Below are positions 2,337 to 17,601 of a DNA stretch of 64,000 bases, in pieces (the stretch's first letter is position 1; the number at the start of each line of letters is the position of its first letter). The position numbers and the translations under genes were made by a program. The notes beneath the pieces are model-generated. The model was not told the DNA's origin. It ran no database searches and saw only the letters and a program-made list of their open reading frames with translations. The stretch spans positions 338,301 to 402,300 of the forward strand of contig NZ_JAATVV010000002.1 of NCBI RefSeq assembly GCF_013184775.1. Reading direction: 5' to 3'. This DNA is from Martelella sp. HB161492. Its GTDB lineage: Bacteria; Pseudomonadota; Alphaproteobacteria; Rhizobiales; Rhizobiaceae.

Positions 2337-3815
2337 TTGACGCCCCTCAGCATTTCCCTTGGCGACAGCGCCCGCATCGCGATCGACAACATTACCGACC
2401 GGGCCGGCGACATGATTCAGCCCACCCTGAGGCTCGGCGTGACCGGACTTTCGCGCGCAGGCAAGACCGTGTTCATCTCGGCCCTTGTGCATAATCTTCT
2501 GCATGGTGGACGCATGCCGATGTTCGAGGCGATGCGCGCCGGACGGATTGCGGCAACGCGGCTGGAAGAGCAGCCAGACGAACATATCGCCCGCTTCGAC
2601 TACGAAACCCATATCGAAAGGCTGCTTGACGAGCGCGTCTGGCCAGAATCCACCCGTGCCATTTCCGAATTGCGCCTGACGATTGAATTCGAAAGCACCA
2701 GTCGCTGGAACCGCCTATTGTCCCGTGGCAAGATCGCCATTGATATTGTTGATTATCCTGGAGAATGGCTGCTTGACCTGCCGCTGCTCGGCCAGGATTT
2801 CTTCGAATTTTCCCGCAAGACGCAGGCGCTGGCCAGCGAAGGCATCCGCGCCGATCTGGCGAAGGACTGGTTCGCTTTTGCCAAAGGCCTCGACTACAAC
2901 GCCCCGGCGGACGAGAAGACCGCGCGCCGTCTGTTCGAGATCTTCTCGGCCTATCTGGCGGCATGCCGGGCCGATGAGCGCTCGCTTTCGACATTGCCGC
3001 CGGGGCGCTTCCTGATGCCGGGCGATCTTGAGGGATCGCCGGCACTGACCTTTGCGCCACTCCCCGATCTGCCGGAAGGCCGGACCAGACGCGGCTCGCT
3101 TGCTGCCATGATGGAAAAGCGCTTCGAGGCCTATAAGGCCCATGTGGTCAAACCCTTCTTCCGCGATCATTTCGCAAGGCTGGATCGCCAGATCGTTCTG
3201 ATTGACGCGCTTCAGGCGCTGAGCCGCGGCAATGAGGCGGTCAGCGATCTCGAGCGGGCGCTGTCCGATGTGCTGGCCTGCTTCCGGCCCGGGCGCAACT
3301 CCTGGCTCTCAGCCCTTCTCGCCCGGCGGATCGACCGCGTGCTGATCGCGGCGACCAAGGCCGATCATCTGCATCACGAGAGCCATGACCGCCTGGAACG
3401 GCTGACCCGCAAGCTCGTTGACGATGCGGCAAAGCGGATCGGTGCCACTGGCGCCGGTATCGAGGTCATGGCGCTAGCTTCAGTGCGCGCCACCCGCGAG
3501 GCAACGGTGGAAAATGGCGCGACGATCCTGCCCGTGATCGTCGGCACCCCGATCGCAGGTGAGAAGATAGGCGGAGAATTGTTTGACGGTACCCGCAAGA
3601 CCGCCATTTTTCCGGGTGATCTGCCCGCCAATCCGGATGCCTTCTTCCGCATGCTGAAAAAGGGCGGCGCGCCGCAAAAGCCGCTGGCCGAAATCAACGC
3701 CATCCGGTTCCGCCCGCCGGAACTGGAACCGGCAGACGAAGGCGGCGATGTGACGATCCCGCATATCCGGCTTGACCGGGCACTGCAGTTTCTATTGGGA
3801 GACCGGCTGCGATGA
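2337..3815 (+). CDS. ycjX: YcjX family P-loop GTPase-like protein (DUF463)
   Basis: 492 residues, close to the usual length of the YcjX/DUF463 family, stress-associated P-loop NTPases often encoded with YcjF and, in enterics, with the phage-shock operon. The Walker A motif GLSRAGKT is at residues 37-44; DIVDYPGEWLLDLP near residue 135-150 resembles the family's DxPG (G3) region, and ATKAD near 340 resembles a guanine-specificity motif. The start is a TTG with AGGAAAG 7-8 nt upstream; the next in-frame ATG (2412) would remove the conserved N-terminal segment before the P-loop. It overlaps the next gene by 4 nt (ATGA), implying translational coupling. A perfect dyad covers its ribosome binding site. 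Physiological role in alphaproteobacteria is not established. Confidence 0.88.
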   Translation: MTPLSISLGDSARIAIDNITDRAGDMIQPTLRLGVTGLSRAGKTVFISALVHNLLHGGRMPMFEAMRAGRIAATRLEEQPDEHIARFDYETHIERLLDERVWPESTRAISELRLTIEFESTSRWNRLLSRGKIAIDIVDYPGEWLLDLPLLGQDFFEFSRKTQALASEGIRADLAKDWFAFAKGLDYNAPADEKTARRLFEIFSAYLAACRADERSLSTLPPGRFLMPGDLEGSPALTFAPLPDLPEGRTRRGSLAAMMEKRFEAYKAHVVKPFFRDHFARLDRQIVLIDALQALSRGNEAVSDLERALSDVLACFRPGRNSWLSALLARRIDRVLIAATKADHLHHESHDRLERLTRKLVDDAAKRIGATGAGIEVMALASVRATREATVENGATILPVIVGTPIAGEKIGGELFDGTRKTAIFPGDLPANPDAFFRMLKKGGAPQKPLAEINAIRFRPPELEPADEGGDVTIPHIRLDRALQFLLGDRLR

Positions 3816-4900
3816 GCGACCAGAAAGACAGCCGCCGGCCGGCCGCCTTTGATCTTGAAGGTGCCGAAAAGAAGAGTGAGGCAGCACCTGCAGAACCGCG
3901 CCGGCCGCAGCATTTCGAAACGCCATCGGTGCGGCTGACACCGGATGAGGATGATCCCTTCATCCGCGAGGCGATGGCGGCGGAACAAGACGACGTCGTC
4001 ACCATGCAGAAGCGGCGCTTCACATTCACCAAGCTCGCCGCCCTTGCCTTCTCGATCGTGCTCAGCCTGGCGATCGGCCTGGCGCTCGATGATCTGGTAC
4101 GCAGTCTGTTTGAGCGCGCCCCCTGGCTCGGCTGGCTGGCCCTTGGCGCAGTGGTCGTCGGTGTTGCCGCCGTTCTGGTTGTTCTGGTGCGCGAGGCGAT
4201 CGCCATCTTCCGCCTTGGCGCGATCCAGCACATCAAGCTCAGGGCCGCAGAGGCCCATGGCGGCGCCGAGCCGAAGAAAGCCCGCACCGTCGTTCATGAG
4301 CTCGAAGCGCTGCTGTCTCACAAGCCCGAGACCGCGCGCGGCCGCGAGCGCCTGAAACAGACCGAAGACGAGATTGTCGACGCACCGCAACTGATCGAGC
4401 TTGCCGAACGCGAATTGATGAGCCCGCTCGACCTCAAGGCCCGCAGCCTGATCGTCGGCGCTTCCAAACGCGTCTCCGTCGTCACCGCCGTCAGCCCGCG
4501 TGCGGTCGTTGACCTTGCTTATGTCGCCTATGAATCCATCCGCCTCGTACGGGCCATGGCCGAGCTTTATGGTGGCCGTCCGGGCTCACTCGGCATGTTC
4601 CGGCTGGTGCGTGACGTGCTGGCCCATCTCGCGGTCACCGGATCGATTGCGGTCGGCGACGGCCTTGTGCAGCAGGTACTGGGTCACGGCATCGCCTCGA
4701 AACTCTCCGCCCGCTTTGGCGAAGGCGTCATCAACGGGTTGATGACGGCGCGAATCGGCATTGCCGCCATGGATCTTTGCCGCCCCATGCCATTCCGCGC
4801 ATTGAAGCGCCCCGGTATCGGCGATTTCATCGGCGATCTGGCACCCGGTGCGAAACGCGACCTTGAAGGACGGCCCGATCCGGGCAACACCAAGTCTTAA
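3812..4900 (+). CDS. ycjF: YcjF-like membrane protein (TIGR01620/DUF697)
   Basis: 362 residues. An acidic, proline-containing N-terminal cytoplasmic region (about 1-65) is followed by two closely spaced membrane segments (about 70-95 and 100-130), then a long alpha-helical C-terminal half containing the DUF697 signature region (SPRAVVDLAYVAYESIRLVR, near 230). This is the standard partner of YcjX. The 4-nt overlap with ycjX fixes the ATG start at 3812. Family members are inner-membrane proteins of unknown biochemical activity that co-occur with YcjX and envelope-stress genes. Assignment by family architecture and neighbour is strong; function is only inferred. Confidence 0.88.
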   Translation: MSDQKDSRRPAAFDLEGAEKKSEAAPAEPRRPQHFETPSVRLTPDEDDPFIREAMAAEQDDVVTMQKRRFTFTKLAALAFSIVLSLAIGLALDDLVRSLFERAPWLGWLALGAVVVGVAAVLVVLVREAIAIFRLGAIQHIKLRAAEAHGGAEPKKARTVVHELEALLSHKPETARGRERLKQTEDEIVDAPQLIELAERELMSPLDLKARSLIVGASKRVSVVTAVSPRAVVDLAYVAYESIRLVRAMAELYGGRPGSLGMFRLVRDVLAHLAVTGSIAVGDGLVQQVLGHGIASKLSARFGEGVINGLMTARIGIAAMDLCRPMPFRALKRPGIGDFIGDLAPGAKRDLEGRPDPGNTKS

Positions 4901-6277: not shown

Positions 6278-6323
6278 TTTAAGGACTTCCGCATTATTTT
6301 AGTGGCAGACATGTTTATGCGCC

Positions 6324-6352
6324 TAATTCAGGGAATTCGGGGAAACAGTCAA
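6324..6352 (-). promoter_or_regulatory. Possible promoter of the ferredoxin gene
   Basis: Read on the minus strand: TTGACT (6352-6347), a 17-nt spacer, then GAATTA (6329-6324). Start of transcription would be near 6317, giving a leader of about 40 nt before the ferredoxin ATG. Spacing and -35 match are good; the -10 is only fair. Confidence 0.45.
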
Positions 6353-6744
6353 TATAATATGGGTGGTCCAGCGACCGCTTTCGACCCGTCCACAGCTCAG
6401 AACCGTGAACGAAGCAAAGGCCTCACAAAAGGCGTATTATGGTTAATATTTGTTAAACGTCGGAATTTGATTGGTTTTTGGACACTGGAATTCCGTTTGG
6501 GGCCGTCCAGCCCGCAAGCCCCTGCTCCTGAACACCGGATCCTTGTTGTATGGATTTTGTGAATATGTCATTAGAAAACAGGGTAATCCCTTGAAATAGC
6601 AGACATTTGCCGTTTCAACAGGTTCCAGGCAGGTTCTCCGGGCTCCTGCGAAGACGGCAGAAGGCCATCTTCTCAAAGGTTCCGGCGCGTATCGGAAGGG
6701 GAATCTCCCCGGTCGGGCGTGAAGCAGTAGAGGAAATGATCCGA
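6353..6744. other. Intergenic region between ferredoxin and the giant gene
   Basis: No gene with coding character is seen. The left part is AT-rich and includes TTAATATTTGTTAA (6443-6456), a TTAA pair with a 6-nt spacer. The right part is GC-richer and presumably carries the promoter and leader of the divergent downstream gene. Confidence 0.5.
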
Positions 6745-6789
6745 ACGCGATCCAGCCCTTCAATGGGGCTGGCTGGCTGCGGATCGCGT
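6745..6789 (+). promoter_or_regulatory. Leader hairpin before the giant polar-growth gene
   Basis: ACGCGATCC (6745-6753) pairs perfectly with GGATCGCGT (6781-6789), and inside it AGCCC (6754-6758) pairs with GGGCT (6766-6770). The structure ends 5 nt before the GAGG ribosome binding site (6795-6798). There is no T-run, so a role in mRNA stability or translation control is more likely than termination. Confidence 0.45.
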
Positions 6790-6805
6790 GTCACGAGGCG
6801 TATTC

Positions 6806-9800
6806 ATGGCTAAACAACTCGGCGAAACCTCGCTTGACGAGAAGGCAATCAGTGCACTGGAAGATGCGCTCGAATTTGACCTGACCGAAGGCGACGAACC
6901 GCAGCAAAAGCAAGCCGACGCCGCGGTCGAGCGCGACGCGCCAGCCGCTTCTGACGACAGCCACCACAAGCAGGACGCTCCGGCACGACCGCCAAAGAAC
7001 GAGGCGACGAAGCGCGCCACCTCGTCCCATCCCAAATCGCCAGAATTCAAGCCCGCCAACGATCCGGGCCGCTTTTCGACACACAACATATTGCGCGCCT
7101 TTGACAGCCGCTCGATCTTTCCGGTTCTGAAGAACGTTTCGATTGCTGCCGTGATCTGGCTGATCCTCGGCCTTGGCACAACGTTGCTGATTTTCGGCTC
7201 AGAAATTTCCGCGGCGCCATCGCTGCGCGCGATTTTCGCCATTGACGGCATGGGCATCGCGCTCGTCCTGACCTTCATTCCGATCTTCCTGCTGTTTGCC
7301 TCCACCATCATGATGGCGCGTGCGCGCGACATGCATGAAGCCGCTCGCTCGATGGCAGAAGTGGCGCTGCGCCTGGCAGAGCCGGATGAAACGGGTGTTC
7401 AGCAGGTTCGCAGTGTCGGTCAGGCCGTCCGCCGTGAAGTCTATGCCATGAATGAAGGCATCGAACGCACGATCGCGCGGGCGACAGAACTGGAAAACCT
7501 GGTCCATTCGGAAGTCAACGCACTGGAACGCTCCTATGCGGATAACGAGATCCGCGTTCGCAATCTGGTGCAGGAGCTTTCCGCCGAGCGTGAAGCCGTG
7601 ATCAACCACGCCGCACGGCTGCGCACATCGATTCTTGGCACCAATGATCAGCTGCGCAAGGATGTCTCCGCCGCCATGGACGAACTGACCCGCACGGTCA
7701 GCACCGCGGGCGACGGCGTTGCCGAAATGCTTGAAACGCGCGCTGCGCAGATCGAGGAACGGTCCAGCACAGCGGCTCACAAGATTGAGGAAAGCCTCGA
7801 TCAGCGTTCCGCCTCGCTGCAGGAAAGCTTTGATCGCGCCCACTCCTCGCTGTCTGACCTGTTCGAAAACCGCTTCGAAACCATGACGTCGCAGATGACG
7901 GATACCAGCCGCGCGCTGATCGGCGAATTCGAGACCAGAGCGGCCTCGTTCAGTCAGGACGCAGAGCGGCTGAATGCCAGCCTTGCCGAGCGCAGCCGCG
8001 AACTTGACGACATTCTGACCAATCGTGCCCGCGCACTTCTCGATGCCGCCGAAACAGGCGAGAAGTCGATGAGCGAGGCGCTTGACCGCATCATGGGCGG
8101 CCTTTCCGCCACGATCAGCCAGACCCAGGCAAACTTCAATCAGCAGCTCGGCGAAGCCAGTGCCGAGATCGATCGCCAGATCGAAGAGCGCGGCAACTTC
8201 GTCGACCAGCGCCTCGAAGCCTCGATCACCCGCTTCTCGGCCAATCTCGGCAACCGCCTCACAAGCTTTTCCGATGGCATCGACGAGCAGAGCAATGCTC
8301 TTGAAAGCAGGCTCGACAGCAATCTCGGCCGCCTCAACCAGGCGATCGTCGAGGGCAATTCCTCACTCGATTCGCTGCTGTCGAACGCACGCGACGATTT
8401 CGAGCAGCGCTTTGCCGAACAATCCCTGGCACTCGCCGCAACGCTTGGCACCAGTGAAGATGCCATTGCCCAGACGCTTGATTCGGGCGCCAGCCGTATC
8501 GATGAAACGCTCGGTCAGGGCCACCGGCAGATCGCCTCGTCGCTTGATACAGCATCGAGCCGCATCGAAAGCACGCTTTTCGAACGTTCCGACAGCTTCA
8601 GCAAGAATGTCGAGGCTGTCGAAAGCCGCATCGCCACGACCTTTGAGGAAGGTGGCAGGTCCCTGCGTGAAGCCTATGAGGGTCAGCAGACCCGCCTGGA
8701 GACCAGTTTGCGCGACGGCGCCGAGCGCATGGAACAGAGCCTTGATGGCCGTATTGAGCAGTTCGACAAGAGCCTCGACGGCCGGGTCCGCGAACTCGAT
8801 ACCGCCCTTGGCGACCGCCTGATCGAACTCGACTTCACCCTCGACACCAAGACCGACCGCATCGAGCAGACACTGGACGACCGCCTGACCAGGCTCGACA
8901 GCCATCTCGACGAGCGCATCGACCATATCGGCCAGGGCTTTGACGGCCGTATCGAGAAACTCGACAGCCGCATTGGCGAATTCGACCGCAGCTTCGACAG
9001 CCGCATCGAAAAGCTGGACAGCAATCTCGACGGCCGCATCGACCAGATCGGCCAGAACATTGACGGTCGTATCGGCCAGATCGACAGCCGCATTGGTGAA
9101 TTCAACCAGAGCCTCGACAGCCGCATCGAAAAGCTGGACGGCAATCTCGACAGCCGCATTGACCAGATCGGACAGAGTTTCGATGGCCGCATCGGCCAGC
9201 TCGACAGCCGTATCGGCGAGTTCGACAAGAGCTTCGACAGCCGGATCAACCAGATCGGCGACAGCTTCGACGGCCGCCTGCAGCAGCTCGATGGAACGCT
9301 TGAAAACCGCATCGGTCAGATCGGCGAGAACATGGACGGGCGCATCCGTCAGCTCGACGGCAGTCTGGACGAGCGGATCGGACGTTTCGACCAGACGCTC
9401 AATTCCCGTCTGGAACACCTCGACACGCAGATTACCGACGCCGACACCCGTATCGACGCGACCATGGCGCGCGGCAGCAAGGCGATGGAGACGGCCCTGT
9501 CCCAGCAGGTCGCCCAGCTGGAATCCACGCTGACTGAGGAAACCACCAATATCAGCGCCACGCTGGCGGCAACCACCAGCCTGCTCGAAATGTCGCTCGA
9601 AGGCCGTGAAGAGGCCCTGCGCGAGATGATCGACAAGTCCGGCGAGGCCCTCGACCAGCGCCTGCGCGGTTCGGCCGGTGCCATTGCCGACAAGGTCGGC
9701 ACGGCTGCCAGACTGATTGGCCAGTCGGCGGAAGCCATGACCAGCCGGGTCGAGAACTCCTTCCAGGGCATCAACCAGACGCTGACAGACAATACCGGGC

Positions 9801-12800
9801 GCCTTGATGAACGGATCGAAAGCCTGAACACGCTGGTCAACGAAGGCACCAAGCGCGTCGAGAGCACAATCACCGCCACCGGCGAGAAACTGGATGAGGC
9901 TCTGAACCGTCACGCCGCCTCTGTTGATTCTTCAGCGCGCAACGCTTCGGAAAAACTGACATCGGCGCTTTCCGACTACGCCCAGCAGATCGACGGCGCT
10001 GGCGACGAAGCCCGCAACCAGCTCAACCACACGCTGGAGAGCCATGTCGGTCGCATTGACGCGACGACCGCTTCTGCCCGCCAGCAGATCGATGCGACGC
10101 TCAGCGCCCATACCGCACGCATCAGCGATACCGGTGAGCAGTCGGCTCAGCGCATGGAAAACCTTCTGTCGTCGCATGAAGAGCGGCTCAGCGGCGCCTA
10201 TGCTGCCCATGCCTTCCAGATTGATGAGACGAGCGAGCAATCGGCAAACCGCCTCGATCAGATCCTCAGCGGCCACGCCAATCGCTTTGACGCCGCTACC
10301 GCCAATGCGGAGAACCGTCTCGACCAGACCCTCACCCACCATGCAGGCAAGGTCGAAGAGGCAAGCCGCGGCACGGCAGAGCGGGTTGCAGGCGTGATGA
10401 GCGAGCAGACGCGGATGTTCGAACAGGCCAGCGAAAATGCCAGCCTGCAGATTTCCGACACGCTGTCGAACCATGCCCGTGCTCTGGCCGAATCCGGCGC
10501 GCAGATCGACACCCGGCTTTCCGGAATGCTGGATGAAAAGACCCGCAGGCTGGAGAATGCCGGCCAGGCCGCGAGCGACCGCATCTCAGAAACCCTCGAA
10601 AACCAGCGCGATCAACTGGAACGGACCATCGACAATGGCGCCGGTCATATCGGTGAGCGCTTCTCCACGCTGGAGCGTGCCCTTGATGCCGGACTTACCA
10701 ATGTCAATCAGGTGATGCAGGATCAGGTCGGCCGCCTGACCGGCGATCTGCGCAGCACGCTTGCCGAAACCTCAGCCAGCATGAATGCCGGAGCGGAACA
10801 GGCCCGCATGCTTCTTGAAGAGGCCGGCCGTGATTTCGCCGAACAGCTTTCGGCCACCAGCGCATCCTTCATGCAGAACCTCGAAAGCAGCACAAGCGGC
10901 ATCTTCGCCCGCGCCAGCGATCTGCAGAACCGGCTTGCCGCACAGGCCGAGGCTGCCGGTGAAAGCGCCAGCGAGAACAGCAGCCGCATTGCCGAGATCA
11001 TCGCCGCAACGATGCAGCGCATCGACAGCCAGGTCGGTGCCATCCGCCAGACGATCAACGGCGCCGAACAGCAGCTTGCTGTTCGCACCGAAGATCTGAA
11101 TGCGATGATGAACACCTCTACCGACAAGCTGGCCGAGGAACTGCAGAACACCGAGCGCAAGGTCGCCGAACGCAGCGAATCCATCCGCGTCAATCTCAGC
11201 CAGCAGACCAGGGCGCTTGAGGAAACGCTGGGCGCCGTCGACCGCGCCCTGCAGGCCCGCAGTGCAGCCATCAGCACGACCCTGGACGAGCGTGCCCGTG
11301 ACATGAATTCCATGCTCGCCGGTCATGCAAGCGACCTCAACACTCTGATCGAGCAGAAGGCGCGGCCGCTGATTGCAAGCTATGCCGGCACGGGCCGCCA
11401 GGCAGCCGAGGAAATCAGCCGCGCCGCTGCGGATGCAGGTGACAGCCTGCGCAATGACAGCAATGCGCTGGCGGAAAATGTGAAGGCACTGATCAACTCG
11501 CTCGGCATCAGCCAGTCGCAGCTCAGCGAGATGATCGAGAAAGCCTCGGCCGACCTCTCCGTCGCCGATCGCCGCCTCGCTTCGACCGCACAGCAGCTGA
11601 TGGGAACATCTGCCAATACCGCCGAAAACCTGGCCCGTTCCGGCCAGATGCTCGACGACAAGATCGCACGTCTCGATCAGTCGAGCAGCGGCGCGCTTTC
11701 GGCCATTTCCGATATTGCCAGCCGGATCGACAGCCATTCGTCGATCCTCAGCCAGGCATCGCTGCTTATCGAGAAGGCGCAGTCGGGCCTGTCCTCGACG
11801 CTGGCCGAACGGCAGACGGCGCTCAGCGCGCTGTCCGACGAACTTGCCGCACGCTCCGGCGAGATCGAGCATGCCCTCAAGGCTGCAGCCGAAGCCGTCG
11901 CCGCGTCGATCAGCGACACCCAGCGCAACAGCGAAGCCATGGCAACGCGTCTGCGCTCCGGCATATCCGCCTCCATGGAAGATGTCGGGCGCACCGTCAC
12001 AGAGGCTGGCAAGGCATCGGAACTCTCCGCCAAGACCATCCGCGAAACGCTGAAGGGCTCCGTTGAGGATGCGGCTCGCCGCTTTGCCGGTGCGACGGAA
12101 GAAATCCGCAAGATCTCGACAGAGATCCGTGATGAACTCGACACGACCCGCATGGCAGTCAAGCGCGGCATCCACGACCTGCCGGAAGAGGCTCGCGAAT
12201 CGGCGACTAACATGCGCCGCGCCGTCGAGGATCAGATTCGGGCATTGAAGGACATTTCCGGCCTGATCAGTGCCTCGCGCCAGCAGATCGCTCCGGCCCC
12301 CGAGGCCCAGCCGGCACCTGTAAACGTCGCTCCTGCACGCAGTGAACGGCCGAGCATGAGCCCGCCGGCCGGTTCCCTGCCCCAGCGCCCCTCCATGCCG
12401 CAGGTCAGCGACATGCCGCAGCTGCGTGGCAGTGCGACGACCGCGCCGGCAGCAATGCCATCCCTGTCGTCCACCTCTGGCCAGGCCGCCGCGGCGCCGC
12501 GTCAGGCAACATCGGCATCGGCAGCACCAAGCGGCGACGGCTGGATCAGCGATCTTCTGCGCGCAGCGGCGCGGGAGGAAAGCGCCCCGCGCGGCGTCCA
12601 GTCCGCCCCGCGCCAGTCCGCCGCCGACCGCAAGCCAAATCAGGTGGTCGATTCGCTGAACTCGCTGTCCGTCGACATCGCCCGCGCCATCGATCACGAT
12701 GCATCGGTCGAGTTGTGGCGCCGCTATCAGCAGGGCGAACGCGACATCTTTACCCGGCGCCTCTATACGCTGAAGGGCCAGCACACCTTCGACGAGATCA

Positions 12801-12985
12801 AGTCGAAATATGAAAGCGATCGCGACTTCCGTACCGCCGTCGACCGCTACATCGCCGATTTTGAAAAGCTGCTCGCCGATGTCATGGATAAGCATCGTGA
12901 CCGCGCCGTCGTTCAGACCTATCTGACCTCGGATACCGGCAAGGTCTACACCATGCTCGCCCACGCCTCAGGGCGCCTGCGCTGA
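6806..12985 (+). CDS. gpr: Growth Pole Ring-like giant coiled-coil membrane protein
   Basis: 2059 residues, nearly the size of the GROWTH POLE RING protein of Agrobacterium tumefaciens (about 2100 residues, apolipoprotein-like), which forms a ring at the growing pole and is needed for unipolar growth. An acidic, disordered N-terminus (1-100) precedes two membrane segments (about 108-131 and 148-171). About 1600 residues of alpha-helical repeats follow, many of them 11-residue units such as DSRIEKLDSNL, including near-identical 120-bp DNA repeats. A Pro/Ala-rich linker (about 1830-1905) leads to a conserved globular C-terminus (about 1910-2059, WISDLLRAA...YLTSDTGKVYTML). The ATG at 6806 has GAGG 7 nt upstream; an in-frame GTG at 6788 lies inside the leader hairpin and is less likely. 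It is followed by a terminator and stands alone. Identification rests on size, architecture and repeat type. Confidence 0.88.
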   Translation: MAKQLGETSLDEKAISALEDALEFDLTEGDEPQQKQADAAVERDAPAASDDSHHKQDAPARPPKNEATKRATSSHPKSPEFKPANDPGRFSTHNILRAFDSRSIFPVLKNVSIAAVIWLILGLGTTLLIFGSEISAAPSLRAIFAIDGMGIALVLTFIPIFLLFASTIMMARARDMHEAARSMAEVALRLAEPDETGVQQVRSVGQAVRREVYAMNEGIERTIARATELENLVHSEVNALERSYADNEIRVRNLVQELSAEREAVINHAARLRTSILGTNDQLRKDVSAAMDELTRTVSTAGDGVAEMLETRAAQIEERSSTAAHKIEESLDQRSASLQESFDRAHSSLSDLFENRFETMTSQMTDTSRALIGEFETRAASFSQDAERLNASLAERSRELDDILTNRARALLDAAETGEKSMSEALDRIMGGLSATISQTQANFNQQLGEASAEIDRQIEERGNFVDQRLEASITRFSANLGNRLTSFSDGIDEQSNALESRLDSNLGRLNQAIVEGNSSLDSLLSNARDDFEQRFAEQSLALAATLGTSEDAIAQTLDSGASRIDETLGQGHRQIASSLDTASSRIESTLFERSDSFSKNVEAVESRIATTFEEGGRSLREAYEGQQTRLETSLRDGAERMEQSLDGRIEQFDKSLDGRVRELDTALGDRLIELDFTLDTKTDRIEQTLDDRLTRLDSHLDERIDHIGQGFDGRIEKLDSRIGEFDRSFDSRIEKLDSNLDGRIDQIGQNIDGRIGQIDSRIGEFNQSLDSRIEKLDGNLDSRIDQIGQSFDGRIGQLDSRIGEFDKSFDSRINQIGDSFDGRLQQLDGTLENRIGQIGENMDGRIRQLDGSLDERIGRFDQTLNSRLEHLDTQITDADTRIDATMARGSKAMETALSQQVAQLESTLTEETTNISATLAATTSLLEMSLEGREEALREMIDKSGEALDQRLRGSAGAIADKVGTAARLIGQSAEAMTSRVENSFQGINQTLTDNTGRLDERIESLNTLVNEGTKRVESTITATGEKLDEALNRHAASVDSSARNASEKLTSALSDYAQQIDGAGDEARNQLNHTLESHVGRIDATTASARQQIDATLSAHTARISDTGEQSAQRMENLLSSHEERLSGAYAAHAFQIDETSEQSANRLDQILSGHANRFDAATANAENRLDQTLTHHAGKVEEASRGTAERVAGVMSEQTRMFEQASENASLQISDTLSNHARALAESGAQIDTRLSGMLDEKTRRLENAGQAASDRISETLENQRDQLERTIDNGAGHIGERFSTLERALDAGLTNVNQVMQDQVGRLTGDLRSTLAETSASMNAGAEQARMLLEEAGRDFAEQLSATSASFMQNLESSTSGIFARASDLQNRLAAQAEAAGESASENSSRIAEIIAATMQRIDSQVGAIRQTINGAEQQLAVRTEDLNAMMNTSTDKLAEELQNTERKVAERSESIRVNLSQQTRALEETLGAVDRALQARSAAISTTLDERARDMNSMLAGHASDLNTLIEQKARPLIASYAGTGRQAAEEISRAAADAGDSLRNDSNALAENVKALINSLGISQSQLSEMIEKASADLSVADRRLASTAQQLMGTSANTAENLARSGQMLDDKIARLDQSSSGALSAISDIASRIDSHSSILSQASLLIEKAQSGLSSTLAERQTALSALSDELAARSGEIEHALKAAAEAVAASISDTQRNSEAMATRLRSGISASMEDVGRTVTEAGKASELSAKTIRETLKGSVEDAARRFAGATEEIRKISTEIRDELDTTRMAVKRGIHDLPEEARESATNMRRAVEDQIRALKDISGLISASRQQIAPAPEAQPAPVNVAPARSERPSMSPPAGSLPQRPSMPQVSDMPQLRGSATTAPAAMPSLSSTSGQAAAAPRQATSASAAPSGDGWISDLLRAAAREESAPRGVQSAPRQSAADRKPNQVVDSLNSLSVDIARAIDHDASVELWRRYQQGERDIFTRRLYTLKGQHTFDEIKSKYESDRDFRTAVDRYIADFEKLLADVMDKHRDRAVVQTYLTSDTGKVYTMLAHASGRLR
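8744..9440 (+). repeat. Hendecad array with 120-bp tandem repeats inside gpr
   Basis: The encoded protein is a run of 11-residue units of the form D-x-R-I-x-x-L-D-x-x-L/F. Between 8942-9061 and 9062-9181 two 40-residue units (one 7-residue block plus three hendecads) are repeated in tandem with 18 mismatches in 120 bp by my count; a partial third copy starts at 9182. This suggests recent slippage or unequal crossover and possible length variation between strains. Confidence 0.9.
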
Positions 12986-13473: not shown

Positions 13474-14109
13474 TTAAAGCGTCGACACGGCCCATGCCAC
13501 GATTGCAGACGTAGCCTGAGCCGAGGCCTGATCAAGTGCGCTGACGAGCACGCCGTTGCTGGCCGTCGGGTTGACGCCCACCTTGGTGTCGAAAACATTC
13601 TGCGCCTTGACGACGCCGCTGCGATCATCAACCAGCTTGACGGCAAGCGAGACATTGGCCGTGCCGCCACCTGCAGCATCGATCGAGAAATCACGGATCT
13701 CGACGACAAGCTGATAGTCGATCGCCAGGCCCTGCCCCGGCATGCCGACACCGCCAAAAGCACCCGTCCGCTCAAGACCGGCAACAAGGTTGGCCTGAAC
13801 GAGGTTTGGCAGATTGTCGCCCCACTGGGCCTTCGAGAGATAGCGGATCTCCGAACCCGGAAGCCGCACGACGATATCCTGCCCCGCCAGAGCCTGCATC
13901 GCGCCCGGTGTTGGCACGAGAATCTGGAGCTTCTTTGTGGCTGTGGTCGTGGCACTTGCCGTTGCGATTTCAGGCGTCGCCGAAAGCGCAAAAGTATCAT
14001 TGGTCGGACGAACGGCACAGCCGGATAGGAGCGCTGCACCAAGCGCTGCGGCAAGCACCGGCCGCGCCATATGATGCATCCCTTGCCCTGTCGACTTCAA
14101 GTTTTTCAT
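13474..14109 (-). CDS. ABC-type lipid transport auxiliary lipoprotein (PqiC/YmbA-like)
   Basis: 211 residues as listed. The lipobox LLSGC places the lipidated cysteine at residue 31 from this start; starting instead at the third in-frame ATG (MARPVLAAALG) would give a compact 17-residue lipoprotein signal peptide, which is also plausible. The mature domain fits the ABC-transport auxiliary component family that accompanies MCE-type phospholipid transporters and is thought to link them to the outer membrane. It is last in the mlaE-mlaF-mlaD order, 121 nt after mlaD. Expected location is the periplasmic face of the outer membrane. Family call is supported chiefly by context, size and lipobox. 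Confidence 0.8.
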   Translation of the reverse strand: MKNLKSTGQGMHHMARPVLAAALGAALLSGCAVRPTNDTFALSATPEIATASATTTATKKLQILVPTPGAMQALAGQDIVVRLPGSEIRYLSKAQWGDNLPNLVQANLVAGLERTGAFGGVGMPGQGLAIDYQLVVEIRDFSIDAAGGGTANVSLAVKLVDDRSGVVKAQNVFDTKVGVNPTASNGVLVSALDQASAQATSAIVAWAVSTL

Positions 14110-14230
14110 CAGTCCTACCGTTCCGCTTTCCGGTTACCCTTCCAGCTTTGTACTCAAACGAAAATTATAAAATATTACAAGATCCTGACATGTAATTGCG
14201 ACATTAATCGCAATCACTGCCATTCGTCCA

Positions 14231-15601
14231 TCAGTAACGGGTGCGTCCGTCATAGGGTTTTACGGTCTGGCCGCCGAAGATGAGCTGCTGCGGATCACGC
14301 GCGATCCCGGACACCGTCCGGTCAAGCGAATTGATGGTCGTGCGCAACTGTTCGACGAGAGCATTGACATTGCGAAGACCGGAGCCGGAGAAACTGTCGA
14401 GATTGTCGGCAATCGGTCCGATCCGGGTGTTCAGCGTTTCGGCAACCTGACGGACTGATTCCAGCGTCTCGCGGGCTTCGACGGAAAGCGACTTCGTGTC
14501 GTCCGAACCGAGAAGCGTGTCAACCTTGGTCAGGATGGTATCAACCCGCGTCGATGCGTCGTTCAGCTTCTTCGACAGTTCACTGAGATTGGTGAGCGTA
14601 CTGTCGATCTGGTCGCTATGGGCATTGACGTTGTCCGCCACGGATTTGATCGAATTCACCGCAGCCTTGGCGTCGTTCATGGTTGAAGCCAGATCATCGA
14701 CCGAGCTGCCGACTTTCTGCGGATCAATCGCCGCGACGATATCATTGATCTGCTGGAAGGCCGACTGGGCCTGCGAGGCCATGCCCTTATAGGTTTCCAC
14801 CGTCTTGCTGAACTGGTCGATCACCTCGTTCAGATGCTCCGAGGAAACGGCGACATTCTCGGTGATCGTGTTGGCATTGGAAACGATATTGCCCACCTGA
14901 TCCGGATTGACGGCGGCAATCACCTTATCAAGCCCGGTCAGCGTTTCGTCGAGCTTGCCGGAGAGCTGCTTGACCGTGCCGGACAGTTCCCCCACCGTCG
15001 ACAGGAAGGTATTGATATTGTCGGAATTCTTGCTGAGGACATCGGTGAAATCCTGAATATTGCTGACCGTCTTGGTGAGCGGCGTGTTGACCGTTGTGAT
15101 CATGCTTTGAACCTGGGTAATCGTGTCATCCACCCGTTTCATGATCTGATCGGCCGTTGCCAACAGGTTGGCCAGGCTCGATTTATCGGCCGTCAATGTC
15201 GCATATGTGTCGTTGTCCAGCGCTTCCTGCAGGATATTCGGACCGCTTTCGCCACCGGCCGACAGCTCGATATAGCCCGAGCCTGTCAGACCCGACAGTT
15301 CCAGCTTGGCCACCGTCGATTCGTGAACCGGCGTATCGGCCTTTACCGTCGTCTCGGCAATCGTGAAGCGCGGATCCTGCGGATCAATGCGCAGCTTGTT
15401 GATCGCCCCCACCTGAATGCCATTGAACCGGACGGGCGAACCGACAGTCAGCCCATTGGCAGAGCCGGGAATACGCACGACCAGTTCAGCCATCGGCCCC
15501 TGGCGTCCATATTGCTCGATCCAGTATATAAAGCCGGCGCCGGCCACCAGCACGACCAGAACGAAAATACCGACGATGGAATAGTTAGCTTTGGTTTCCA
15601 T
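14231..15601 (-). CDS. mlaD: MlaD family MCE-domain protein
   Basis: 456 residues with one N-terminal membrane anchor (about 8-28, VGIFVLVVLVAGAGFIYWI) followed by an MCE domain (about 38-115, IPGSANGLTVGSPVRFNGIQVG). The rest is a long alpha-helical periplasmic tail with coiled-coil character, much longer than E. coli MlaD and typical of the rhizobial form. MCE proteins form hexameric rings that carry phospholipids between inner and outer membrane. It lies 9 nt downstream of mlaF and shares its operon. Rings with long C-terminal helices form needles or tubes in other MCE proteins, so a longer periplasmic channel is a reasonable inference. Confidence 0.92.
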   Translation of the reverse strand: METKANYSIVGIFVLVVLVAGAGFIYWIEQYGRQGPMAELVVRIPGSANGLTVGSPVRFNGIQVGAINKLRIDPQDPRFTIAETTVKADTPVHESTVAKLELSGLTGSGYIELSAGGESGPNILQEALDNDTYATLTADKSSLANLLATADQIMKRVDDTITQVQSMITTVNTPLTKTVSNIQDFTDVLSKNSDNINTFLSTVGELSGTVKQLSGKLDETLTGLDKVIAAVNPDQVGNIVSNANTITENVAVSSEHLNEVIDQFSKTVETYKGMASQAQSAFQQINDIVAAIDPQKVGSSVDDLASTMNDAKAAVNSIKSVADNVNAHSDQIDSTLTNLSELSKKLNDASTRVDTILTKVDTLLGSDDTKSLSVEARETLESVRQVAETLNTRIGPIADNLDSFSGSGLRNVNALVEQLRTTINSLDRTVSGIARDPQQLIFGGQTVKPYDGRTRY

Positions 15602-15610
15602 GTTTACCCG

Positions 15611-16441
15611 TCAACTGTTCTGGCCACTGGCCGCGTTCTGGAAAATTGCCCGGGAGCGCTTGCCCCGGAAGTAGCTTTTGACCCATGGATCATCATAGTG
15701 AAGCATGGTGTCCAGCGTTCCCTCAACGAGAACCCGCTTCTTTCCAAGCACGGCGATCCGGTCACAGACAGCACTGATACTGTCGAGATCATGGGTCACC
15801 ATATAGACCGTCAACCCGAGCGTGTCACGTAAGCGGGCGATCAGCTCGTCAAATTCAGCGGCACCGATCGGGTCGAGGCCGGATGTCGGTTCATCGAGAA
15901 ACACAAGATCGGGGTCGAGTGCCAGCGCCCGCGCCAGCGCCGCCCGCTTGATCATGCCGCCGGAAAGCTCCGAGGGGTAACGGCTCGCCGCTTCGGGGCG
16001 CAATCCGACCATTTCGATCTTCAGTCGCGCCAGATCATCCATCAGCGACTTCGGCAGATCGAGATATTCGCGCATCGGCACCTGGATATTTTCAAGCACG
16101 GTGAGGCCGGAGAACAGCGCACCCTGCTGAAACAGAACGCCAATCCGCATCTCGATGGCCAGACGCTCATCAAGGCCGATCTCGTCGAAATCACCGCCGA
16201 AGATCTTGATGCTGCCCGCCTTGCGCCGGTTAAGCCGCAAGATCGTGCGCATCAGCACGGACTTGCCGGTGCCCGAGCCGCCGACAAAACCGAGGATCTC
16301 GCCGCGATAGACGTCCAGATCGAGATTCTCGAGCACATTCGACGCATTTCCGAAGCCCACAGTCAGGCCCCGGACCGTCAGAATGGTCTCCCGCGTCTCT
16401 TCGCTTATGCCGTCCTGCTTCTGATCCAACTGAGCCCTCAA
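15611..16441 (-). CDS. mlaF: MlaF-like phospholipid ABC transporter ATPase
   Basis: 276 residues. Walker A GGSGTGKS is at 54-61, signature LSGGMIKRAALARAL and Walker B LVFLDEPTSGLD follow near 155-185, and the switch His is in YMVTHDLDSI. The SGGMIKR form of the signature is characteristic of the MlaF/Ttg2A group rather than of nutrient importers. It powers the MlaE permease for phospholipid transport across the cell envelope. Its start overlaps the end of mlaE by 4 nt, so translation is coupled. The N-terminal 20 residues before the ABC core are charged and variable, a common rhizobial feature. Confidence 0.94.
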   Translation of the reverse strand: MRAQLDQKQDGISEETRETILTVRGLTVGFGNASNVLENLDLDVYRGEILGFVGGSGTGKSVLMRTILRLNRRKAGSIKIFGGDFDEIGLDERLAIEMRIGVLFQQGALFSGLTVLENIQVPMREYLDLPKSLMDDLARLKIEMVGLRPEAASRYPSELSGGMIKRAALARALALDPDLVFLDEPTSGLDPIGAAEFDELIARLRDTLGLTVYMVTHDLDSISAVCDRIAVLGKKRVLVEGTLDTMLHYDDPWVKSYFRGKRSRAIFQNAASGQNS

Positions 16442-17601
16442 AAATTGATTGCCGCGTAGAACATGGCGAAAATGCCATCAACCACAATCACGATGAAAAT
16501 CGCCTTCACCACCGCTGCCGTCACCTTCTTGCCGAGCGATTCGGCACTGCCGCCCACTTTCATGCCCTCCATCGAGGCGACGATGGCGATGATCAGCGCC
16601 ATGAAGGGGGCTTTGGCCATGCCGGATATCACGGTCGACAGCGTCACCGCCTCATGCAGACGCTGCATGAAGGTCTGAAAGGTGATGCCGCAATAGACAT
16701 CGACAACGATGGCGGCGCCCGCGAGCGCGCTGAAATTGGCGACAATCGTCAGAAGCGGCAGCGCGATCAGCAGCGCCAGCATCCGCGGGAAGACCAGCAC
16801 GGCGATCGCATCAAAGCCCATCACACGCAGGGCATCGATCTCCTCACGCATCTTCATCGCGCCGATCTCGGCCGTGATCGCACTGCCGGACCGCCCGGCA
16901 ATCATGATTGCGGTCAAAAGCACGCCGATTTCGCGCAATTGCAGAATGCCGACCAGATCGACAACGAAAAGTTCCGCGCCGAAATAGCGCAGCTGGAAAG
17001 CGCCCTGCTGCGCAATGATGCCGCCGACAAGAAAGGACATCAGCGCTATGATCGGCACGGCGCGCACGCCCATATGATCAAGCTGCGCCGTGACCGAGGC
17101 AAAATTCACGCCGGAGCGCCGGGTGAAAATATTGTAGAGGCCGACGAAAAGCGCACCGAAATAGCCCAGACCATCATAAAGATCATGACCGGCGGAGACC
17201 GTGGAGCGACCGATCTGCTCGACAATACGGTGCCCAAGCGACCGGCTGTCGACCGGTGGCTTTTCAGGCTCAGGAAGCTCATCCGGGATCGCTTCCATCA
17301 ATTCCGCAATGCGGTCGTTCATCCGGCTGAGTTCAGCCTCAAGCCCCGCATCCCGACAATCATCCTGCAGCAGCCGGATCAGCCAGGCACCTGCCGTATC
17401 AACCTGCTCGATGCCGGAAAGATCGATCACGGCACGCGCAGCGCCTGCCGCCTTGATCGCAGCGACCCGTTTCTTTCTCTGATCGAAAAATGTCCTGGAG
17501 GCATGAACCGTCCATGCGCCCTTGAGGGTGAGTAAAACGTCCCCGCCAGGAGCAGCCGTATCGATCTCGAATATAGCCTGCGCTTCTTCCGCCAATCGCA
17601 A
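16438..17601 (-). CDS. mlaE: MlaE-like permease with N-terminal STAS domain
   Basis: 387 residues. Residues 1 to about 110 form a STAS-like domain (VIDLSGIEQVDTAGAWLIRLL); the rest is the MlaE/YrbE permease with about five membrane segments and the typical EIGAMKMREEIDALRVMGF sequence. In E. coli the STAS protein MlaB is separate; the fusion here is the usual form in alphaproteobacteria. It is the first gene of the mlaE-mlaF-mlaD-lipoprotein operon and forms the membrane channel of the phospholipid transporter. The start is the ATG at 17601; the upstream 266 nt to the next gene are free for a promoter, which I could not fix. Confidence 0.93.
   Translation of the reverse strand: MRLAEEAQAIFEIDTAAPGGDVLLTLKGAWTVHASRTFFDQRKKRVAAIKAAGAARAVIDLSGIEQVDTAGAWLIRLLQDDCRDAGLEAELSRMNDRIAELMEAIPDELPEPEKPPVDSRSLGHRIVEQIGRSTVSAGHDLYDGLGYFGALFVGLYNIFTRRSGVNFASVTAQLDHMGVRAVPIIALMSFLVGGIIAQQGAFQLRYFGAELFVVDLVGILQLREIGVLLTAIMIAGRSGSAITAEIGAMKMREEIDALRVMGFDAIAVLVFPRMLALLIALPLLTIVANFSALAGAAIVVDVYCGITFQTFMQRLHEAVTLSTVISGMAKAPFMALIIAIVASMEGMKVGGSAESLGKKVTAAVVKAIFIVIVVDGIFAMFYAAINF

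Follow-up and report, generated by a model that had tools for sequence, protein, structure and literature searches.

The 64,000-nucleotide stretch of Martelella sp. HB161492 analysed here (the window; contig NZ_JAATVV010000002.1, positions 338,301 to 402,300) carries at 6806 to 12985 a gene for a 2,059-residue protein which, by sequence comparison, is the single-copy orthologue of Sinorhizobium meliloti RgsE and is of the GPR/RgsE type (GPR, the Growth Pole Ring protein of Agrobacterium tumefaciens). There is a high probability that it is this organism's GPR/RgsE, a putative scaffold anchored in the inner membrane at the new, growing pole. The filing as GPR/RgsE follows from the identity of the C-terminal domain with that of the S. 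meliloti protein (79.5%), the strong alignment of the start, the membrane region and the first part of the coil in a whole-length BLASTP comparison (29% over 1,875 columns), the similar length of the two proteins and the presence of a YcjF-type gene upstream of both.

Six records of a plasmid collection match the C-terminal domain: four from Sinorhizobium and one from Shinella, with 79.5% identity among the matches listed, and one from Sphingomonas (38.1%). A preliminary description had proposed a GPR homologue of 2059 residues, and the closest named relative found agrees with it, being an S. meliloti protein of 2,089 amino acids, which is the length and species of RgsE, the GPR homologue reported from that bacterium (PMC7327166; the published statements cited here, other than that of PMC8546619, come from extracts of the papers). 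It is encoded on CP090106.1 (locus L062), a 3.7 Mb record labelled pSymB, where it is annotated as a kinesin. This record, labelled as a plasmid, bears rgsE together with other core genes, and its replicon labels may be swapped. The two proteins share the start peptide, membrane hairpin, coil, linker motif and C-terminal domain; they differ in coil sequence, and a divergent Hpt gene stands beside the S. meliloti copy, with none here. Comparison with GPR itself (Atu1348, 2,115 amino acids) runs through RgsE, for which a value of 42% against GPR is given (PMC7327166), and through the published GPR architecture, which likewise has two N-terminal membrane segments, a long helix matching PF01442 and a Pro-rich region near the C-terminal end.

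The gene occupies one uninterrupted frame at 6788-12985 (+), which encodes 2,065 amino acids from a GTG and 2,059 from the ATG at 6806. The ATG is the likely true start because MAKQLGETSLDEKAISALEDALEFDL pairs with the opening residues of the S. meliloti protein, MATKKTNESIDEKAFQALEAALKIDF. The gene is present once in the 5.28 Mb genome, and its product comprises, from N to C terminus, a tail, two membrane segments, a hendecad helix of ~1,640 residues, a Pro-rich linker and a conserved C-terminal domain (Table 1). The size, twin membrane segments, apolipoprotein-like hendecads and conserved C-terminus named in the preliminary description were all recovered, the membrane segments as two hydrophobic N-terminal stretches; its acidic N-terminus stands as an acidic excess, which is mild only (19 D/E versus 13 K/R in the tail).

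Over residues 191-1830 the hydrophobic period is 3.65 residues, close to that of a hendecad (11/3 = 3.67; heptad 3.50), with a periodicity power of 68.6 at this peak versus no more than 10.4 in any of 500 shuffles. There is no proline across residues 194-1520. The Pfam model PF01442 (Apolipoprotein) matches in 12 stretches at 210 bits, above its gathering score of 90. On the strength of this match, and of an apolipoprotein role proposed for GPR (PMC8262873), the coil could be taken as a member of the apolipoprotein family that organises lipids at the pole. This is considered unlikely: the match spans the whole coil, any long amphipathic hendecad helix has the same 11-residue period, and unrelated models also exceed their cut-offs in the coil and nowhere else (Baculo_PEP_C, 71.8 versus 38 bits; ApoLp-III, 43.2 versus 36.3; NCBIfam LA_3659_fam, 53.3 versus 36). 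The match is most simply a mark of the shared 11-residue period. Furthermore, members with a short coil or none, such as Rhodobacterales frames of 330-377 residues, keep the hairpin and the C-terminal domain, which places the conserved core outside the coil.

The preliminary description had named best matches to an unrelated coiled-coil family, together with a lack of polar localisation, as the outcome that would speak against GPR, and this is barely touched by the coil-only models above or by the ZorA models, which stay below their cut-offs. An unrelated coiled-coil protein, for example a ZorA-type anti-phage motor subunit, would account for the 97 bits of NCBIfam ZorA_1 over the coil. It is exceedingly improbable, since the match is confined to the coil, the conserved ends lie outside it and a single-copy gene found in 142/150 genomes of its order is unlike a defence gene; ZorA was ruled out on its NCBIfam cut-offs (97 versus 190 bits and 22.9 versus 250). 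Spirochaete coil families found in the NCBIfam scan were likewise dismissed as the identity of the gene. Within the coil, residues about 690-865 (window about 8870-9400) contain near-perfect repeats of DSRIEKLD and DGRIDQIGQ, which suggest a recent internal duplication.

Evolution has kept the two ends of GPR and not the apolipoprotein-like coil, which is the part mostly cut in experiments. A single C-terminal domain sequence matched 142/150 same-order genomes sampled and 105/289 genomes of the class; a 32-row profile of the domain matched 155/387 genomes of the class, and a 52-row profile matched 92/299 genomes sampled across the phylum, all 92 in Alphaproteobacteria (the 207 unmatched genomes include an uncounted share from outside the class). 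Frames of the family range from 330 to 2,940 residues, and all 44 examined carry the domain at the extreme C-terminal end, 0-16 residues before the stop. A Trp and a Pro of the hairpin are invariant (34/34 in alignment A5 and 17/17 in alignment A6). Two short patterns, both composed after the sequences had been seen, add to this: the N-terminal peptide pattern fits 16/17 same-order loci versus 0.0 expected by shuffling, and the strict GW..DLL linker pattern fits 13/17 loci of the order, the other four having GWVSSLL (twice), SWISGLL and GWLSAVL, and 16 of all 40 loci tested versus 0.4 expected. Distant RgsE homologues were already reported in Emcibacterales and Rhodospirillales (PMC7327166). 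Three genomes (G231, G486 and G522) have two or three domain matches each, the extra ones being possible paralogues.

The C-terminal domain appears to be folded. AlphaFold2 models the domain of a Caulobacteraceae relative, described below, as six helices (predicted local distance difference test score, pLDDT, 92.1; predicted template modelling score, pTM, 0.84) and that of the window protein with an additional leading helix (pLDDT 81.6, pTM 0.78); with the helix lists compared by eye, the six helices of both models are in register within a few residues through the profile alignment. The statement that GPR and TipN are analogous proteins with disordered ends (PMC13170164) was rejected as regards disorder of the whole C-terminus, because the domain is conserved and predicted to be folded. 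A search of PDB sequences with the domain profile gave no match (best E 0.088), and in Pfam and NCBIfam no family matched more than two of 32 domain sequences (best E 0.0011 and 0.0044). Neither Foldseek (best E 0.27 for the window domain and 2.5 for the Caulobacteraceae domain) nor VIA (best Z 6.4 and 3.8) found a convincing relative of solved structure, the best rows being helical noise. This absence of a structural match does not establish a new fold.

Weak profile matches in two genomes led to a wider scan, which returned 112 relatives; the best 80 of the 112 were kept, mostly from Brevundimonas, with one from Asticcacaulis and none titled Caulobacter. Frames of 830-1,000 amino acids are common among them, and the hairpin, coil, linker and C-terminal domain are all present. 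In some Caulobacteraceae genomes the 52-row profile has direct matches (E 1e-9 to 6e-11), and hhalign of the Caulobacteraceae set against the main family gave 96.7% for the C-terminal domain (E 4.4e-10, 98 columns, 22% identical) and 98.5% for the hairpin (E 3.9e-15, 138 columns), versus 0.3-2.9% in four controls against Hpt and YcjF, the latter built from 4 sequences only. The linker pattern fits 12/18 selected Caulobacteraceae proteins versus 0.8 expected. From its family, length and architecture the Caulobacteraceae protein is very probably TipN, a protein of 882 amino acids described as having a pair of membrane segments near its N terminus and a large coiled coil (PMC13170164, PMC9178275). 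TipN of Caulobacter, through these probable orthologues, resembles the window protein in its hairpin with invariant Trp and Pro, its coil, its W-[DE]-L linker motif and its C-terminal domain; it differs in being less than half as long, in its diverged C-terminal domain and in gene neighbourhood, no Hpt gene having been found beside 82 Caulobacteraceae loci. TipN proper (a new-pole landmark of about 880 amino acids, Caulobacteraceae) was not assigned to the 2,059-residue window protein, which is related only. A search of plasmid records with the Brevundimonas protein gave no match. The Rhodobacterales frames, small proteins of marine roseobacters (for example TM1040_RS04205 of Ruegeria sp. TM1040), with 54-56% matches in Tritonibacter and Ruegeria, share the hairpin and the C-terminal domain with the main family (hhalign 95.3% and 96.6%, respectively), whereas they have almost no coil and are annotated only as hypothetical.

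An annotated Hpt gene lies upstream of and divergent from the gene in S. meliloti and Sphingomonas. Among 42 loci outside Caulobacteraceae, chosen for diversity and not at random, the fetched stretch contains an Hpt match in 22. It is a divergent upstream gene in 20, of which 12 are among the 17 loci of the same order; in the remaining two it is a gene on the same strand at a distance of 1.8 kb (L115) or a hybrid kinase (L124). Six of the proteins were tested against the Pfam Hpt cut-off, which four pass well and one just (27.0 versus 24.6), while that of Sphingomonas stays below it (16.7). By eye, the phospho-histidine is kept in 17/20 divergent neighbours and replaced by Leu, Trp or Met in three of sphingomonad type (L064, L121 and L122), which may be pseudo-phosphotransfer proteins to judge from this substitution. 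No Hpt gene is present beside the window gene, and the Hpt matches of the genome lie only in frames of 860-913 residues. Among the papers listed in searches on the Hpt neighbour and polar growth, none connects an Hpt gene with GPR or RgsE. The recurrent neighbour is a lead on possible regulation of pole assembly.

Published work on relatives gives these parts a setting. GPR forms a ring, its depletion leads to round cells with dispersed peptidoglycan synthesis, and C-terminal deletions block complementation (PMC8262873). RgsE is found at the growing pole, gives two-hybrid signals with TolQ (strong), RgsA and RgsS, and is enriched in a TolQ pulldown (PMC7327166); TipN is reported to interact with Tol-Pal (PMC7403779). 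From this and the anatomy computed here, the two-segment hairpin would anchor the protein in the inner membrane with its bulk cytoplasmic, a topology taken from the GPR papers, and the very long hendecad helix would oligomerise or lie on the membrane and determine how large the assembly becomes; the length of this helix is free to vary. Their conservation suggests that the folded C-terminal domain, the GWxxDLL linker motif and the N-terminal peptide could be docking sites for clients: RgsE and TipN, conserved with each other only at the two ends, share a partner, and since both are reported to contact Tol-Pal, Tol-Pal is the best candidate. The preliminary description had suggested peptidoglycan synthases or polarity factors as partners of the C-terminal domain, which is likewise a proposal. 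As far as gene order indicates, the divergently encoded Hpt protein may modulate the scaffold in many relatives, and the window lineage would have lost its gene. The shared domain of about 115 residues offers a compact target in the search for the client by which wall growth or polarity is positioned at the new pole.

The family might alternatively be a general polar or divisome adaptor for new-pole identity and envelope integrity, as TipN is, with polar growth a later use in this order. Its presence in Sphingomonas, Caulobacteraceae and Rhodobacterales, the concern of published TipN work with polarity and the envelope, and the Tol-Pal contacts common to TipN and RgsE make this a serious possibility, only slightly less probable than not, although in both tested relatives from the order growth and shape suffer when the protein is lost. 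An adaptor of this kind is compatible with a growth-pole scaffold rather than opposed to it.

The window protein has both features by which a TipN/GPR superfamily is delimited here, the Trp/Pro hairpin and a helical domain at the extreme C-terminal end. We tentatively propose, at somewhat below even confidence, that GPR, TipN and the small proteins of Rhodobacterales represent a single, ancient new-pole landmark of Alphaproteobacteria, in which a core of hairpin and folded C-terminal domain would dock Tol-Pal or another envelope client, the coil would be a spacer tuned by lineage from almost nothing to more than 2,000 residues, polar growers would have enlarged the protein to a growth-zone scaffold, and the neighbouring Hpt protein, sometimes without phospho-histidine, would tie the landmark to phosphorelay signalling. 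Similarity of GPR to TipN is already in print (PMC8546619). What is new here is the hairpin and folded domain common to the family, backed by controls, together with its members in Sphingomonas, Caulobacteraceae and Rhodobacterales, the short motifs and the Hpt gene next door; no earlier account of any of these was found in the literature searched, which covered few subscription papers. With the shared folded domain, a similarity so far only loosely stated becomes a claim of common descent that can be tested, and a family model would also mend annotations such as the kinesin label of the S. meliloti copy.

Several observations weigh against a GPR/RgsE scaffold or its kinship with TipN, or give them weaker support. 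GPR lacking 332 C-terminal residues still gives paired foci and outperforms GPR lacking 221 (PMC8262873), so ring formation can do without the C-terminal domain, whose role is not a simple one. In S. meliloti RgsE is not strictly essential (PMC7327166), whereas loss of GPR is severe in Agrobacterium, and the roles of the two may differ in weight. The coil is only loosely conserved, hence the low whole-length identity; 8/150 same-order genomes have no domain match; and a fixed hydropathy cut-off finds at least two N-terminal segments in 37/44 frames and one in 6 (L145, which is cut by a contig end, has none). YcjF is upstream in 3/22 loci searched, many stretches ending too near the gene to hold it, and a divergent Hpt gene is absent beside 22/42 genes, L115 and L124 being counted as not divergent. 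The probable TipN identity comes from the family, length and architecture of Caulobacteraceae relatives, 5/60 genomes of that family are without a match (the protein is found in 55/60), and hhalign scores are lower when the Caulobacteraceae set is compared directly with that of Rhodobacterales (91.4% for the domain over 56 columns and 73.8% for the hairpin).

Table 1. Coordinates in the window of the gpr/rgsE-type gene, its parts and its upstream surroundings
Feature	Position	Strand	Basis
gpr/rgsE-type gene, 2,059 amino acids	6806..12985	+	open frame, single copy, RgsE comparison
N-terminal tail, mildly acidic, presumably disordered (residues 1-98)	6806..7099	+	composition
N-terminal peptide SLDEKAISALEDALEFDL (residues 9-26), helix-like motif conserved in the order	6830..6883	+	pattern search
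Membrane segment 1 (residues 104-122, extending to about 137), bears invariant Trp	7115..7171	+	
Membrane segment 2 (residues 151-169), bears invariant Pro	7256..7312	+	
Hendecad helical region (residues 190-1829), PF01442-like	7373..12292	+	Pfam and periodicity
Pro-rich linker (residues 1830-1941)	12293..12628	+	17 Pro in 111 residues (1831-1941)
GWISDLL short linker motif (residues 1912-1918)	12539..12559	+	pattern search
Conserved C-terminal domain (residues 1943-2058), all-helical	12632..12979	+	conservation, prediction
Intergenic stretch without an Hpt gene; site of the divergent Hpt gene in 12/17 same-order loci	6278..6805	.	
YcjF-type neighbour; YcjF also upstream of the S. meliloti gene	3812..4900	+	

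Of the eight same-order genomes that lack a domain match, five fall in two families, three in f194 and two in f181, the latter of which also has weak matches; these gaps are possible losses or cases of strong divergence. The Rfam RNA CC2171 (RF01867) was rejected as a marker of Caulobacteraceae, to which it is not confined: it occurs at E 0.001 or better in 35/70 mixed Alphaproteobacteria genomes and passes its cut-off in 10. Two antisense frames that overlap the coil, 8363-9913 (-) and 10772-12964 (-), of 516 and 730 codons, are taken as by-products of its repetitive high-GC sequence. Downstream of the gene, 13474-17601 (-) holds what by eye is a Mla-type lipid transport set (lipoprotein, MCE protein, ATPase and permease), and in S. 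meliloti an auxiliary lipoprotein gene and an MCE gene lie ~15 kb downstream of its own copy.

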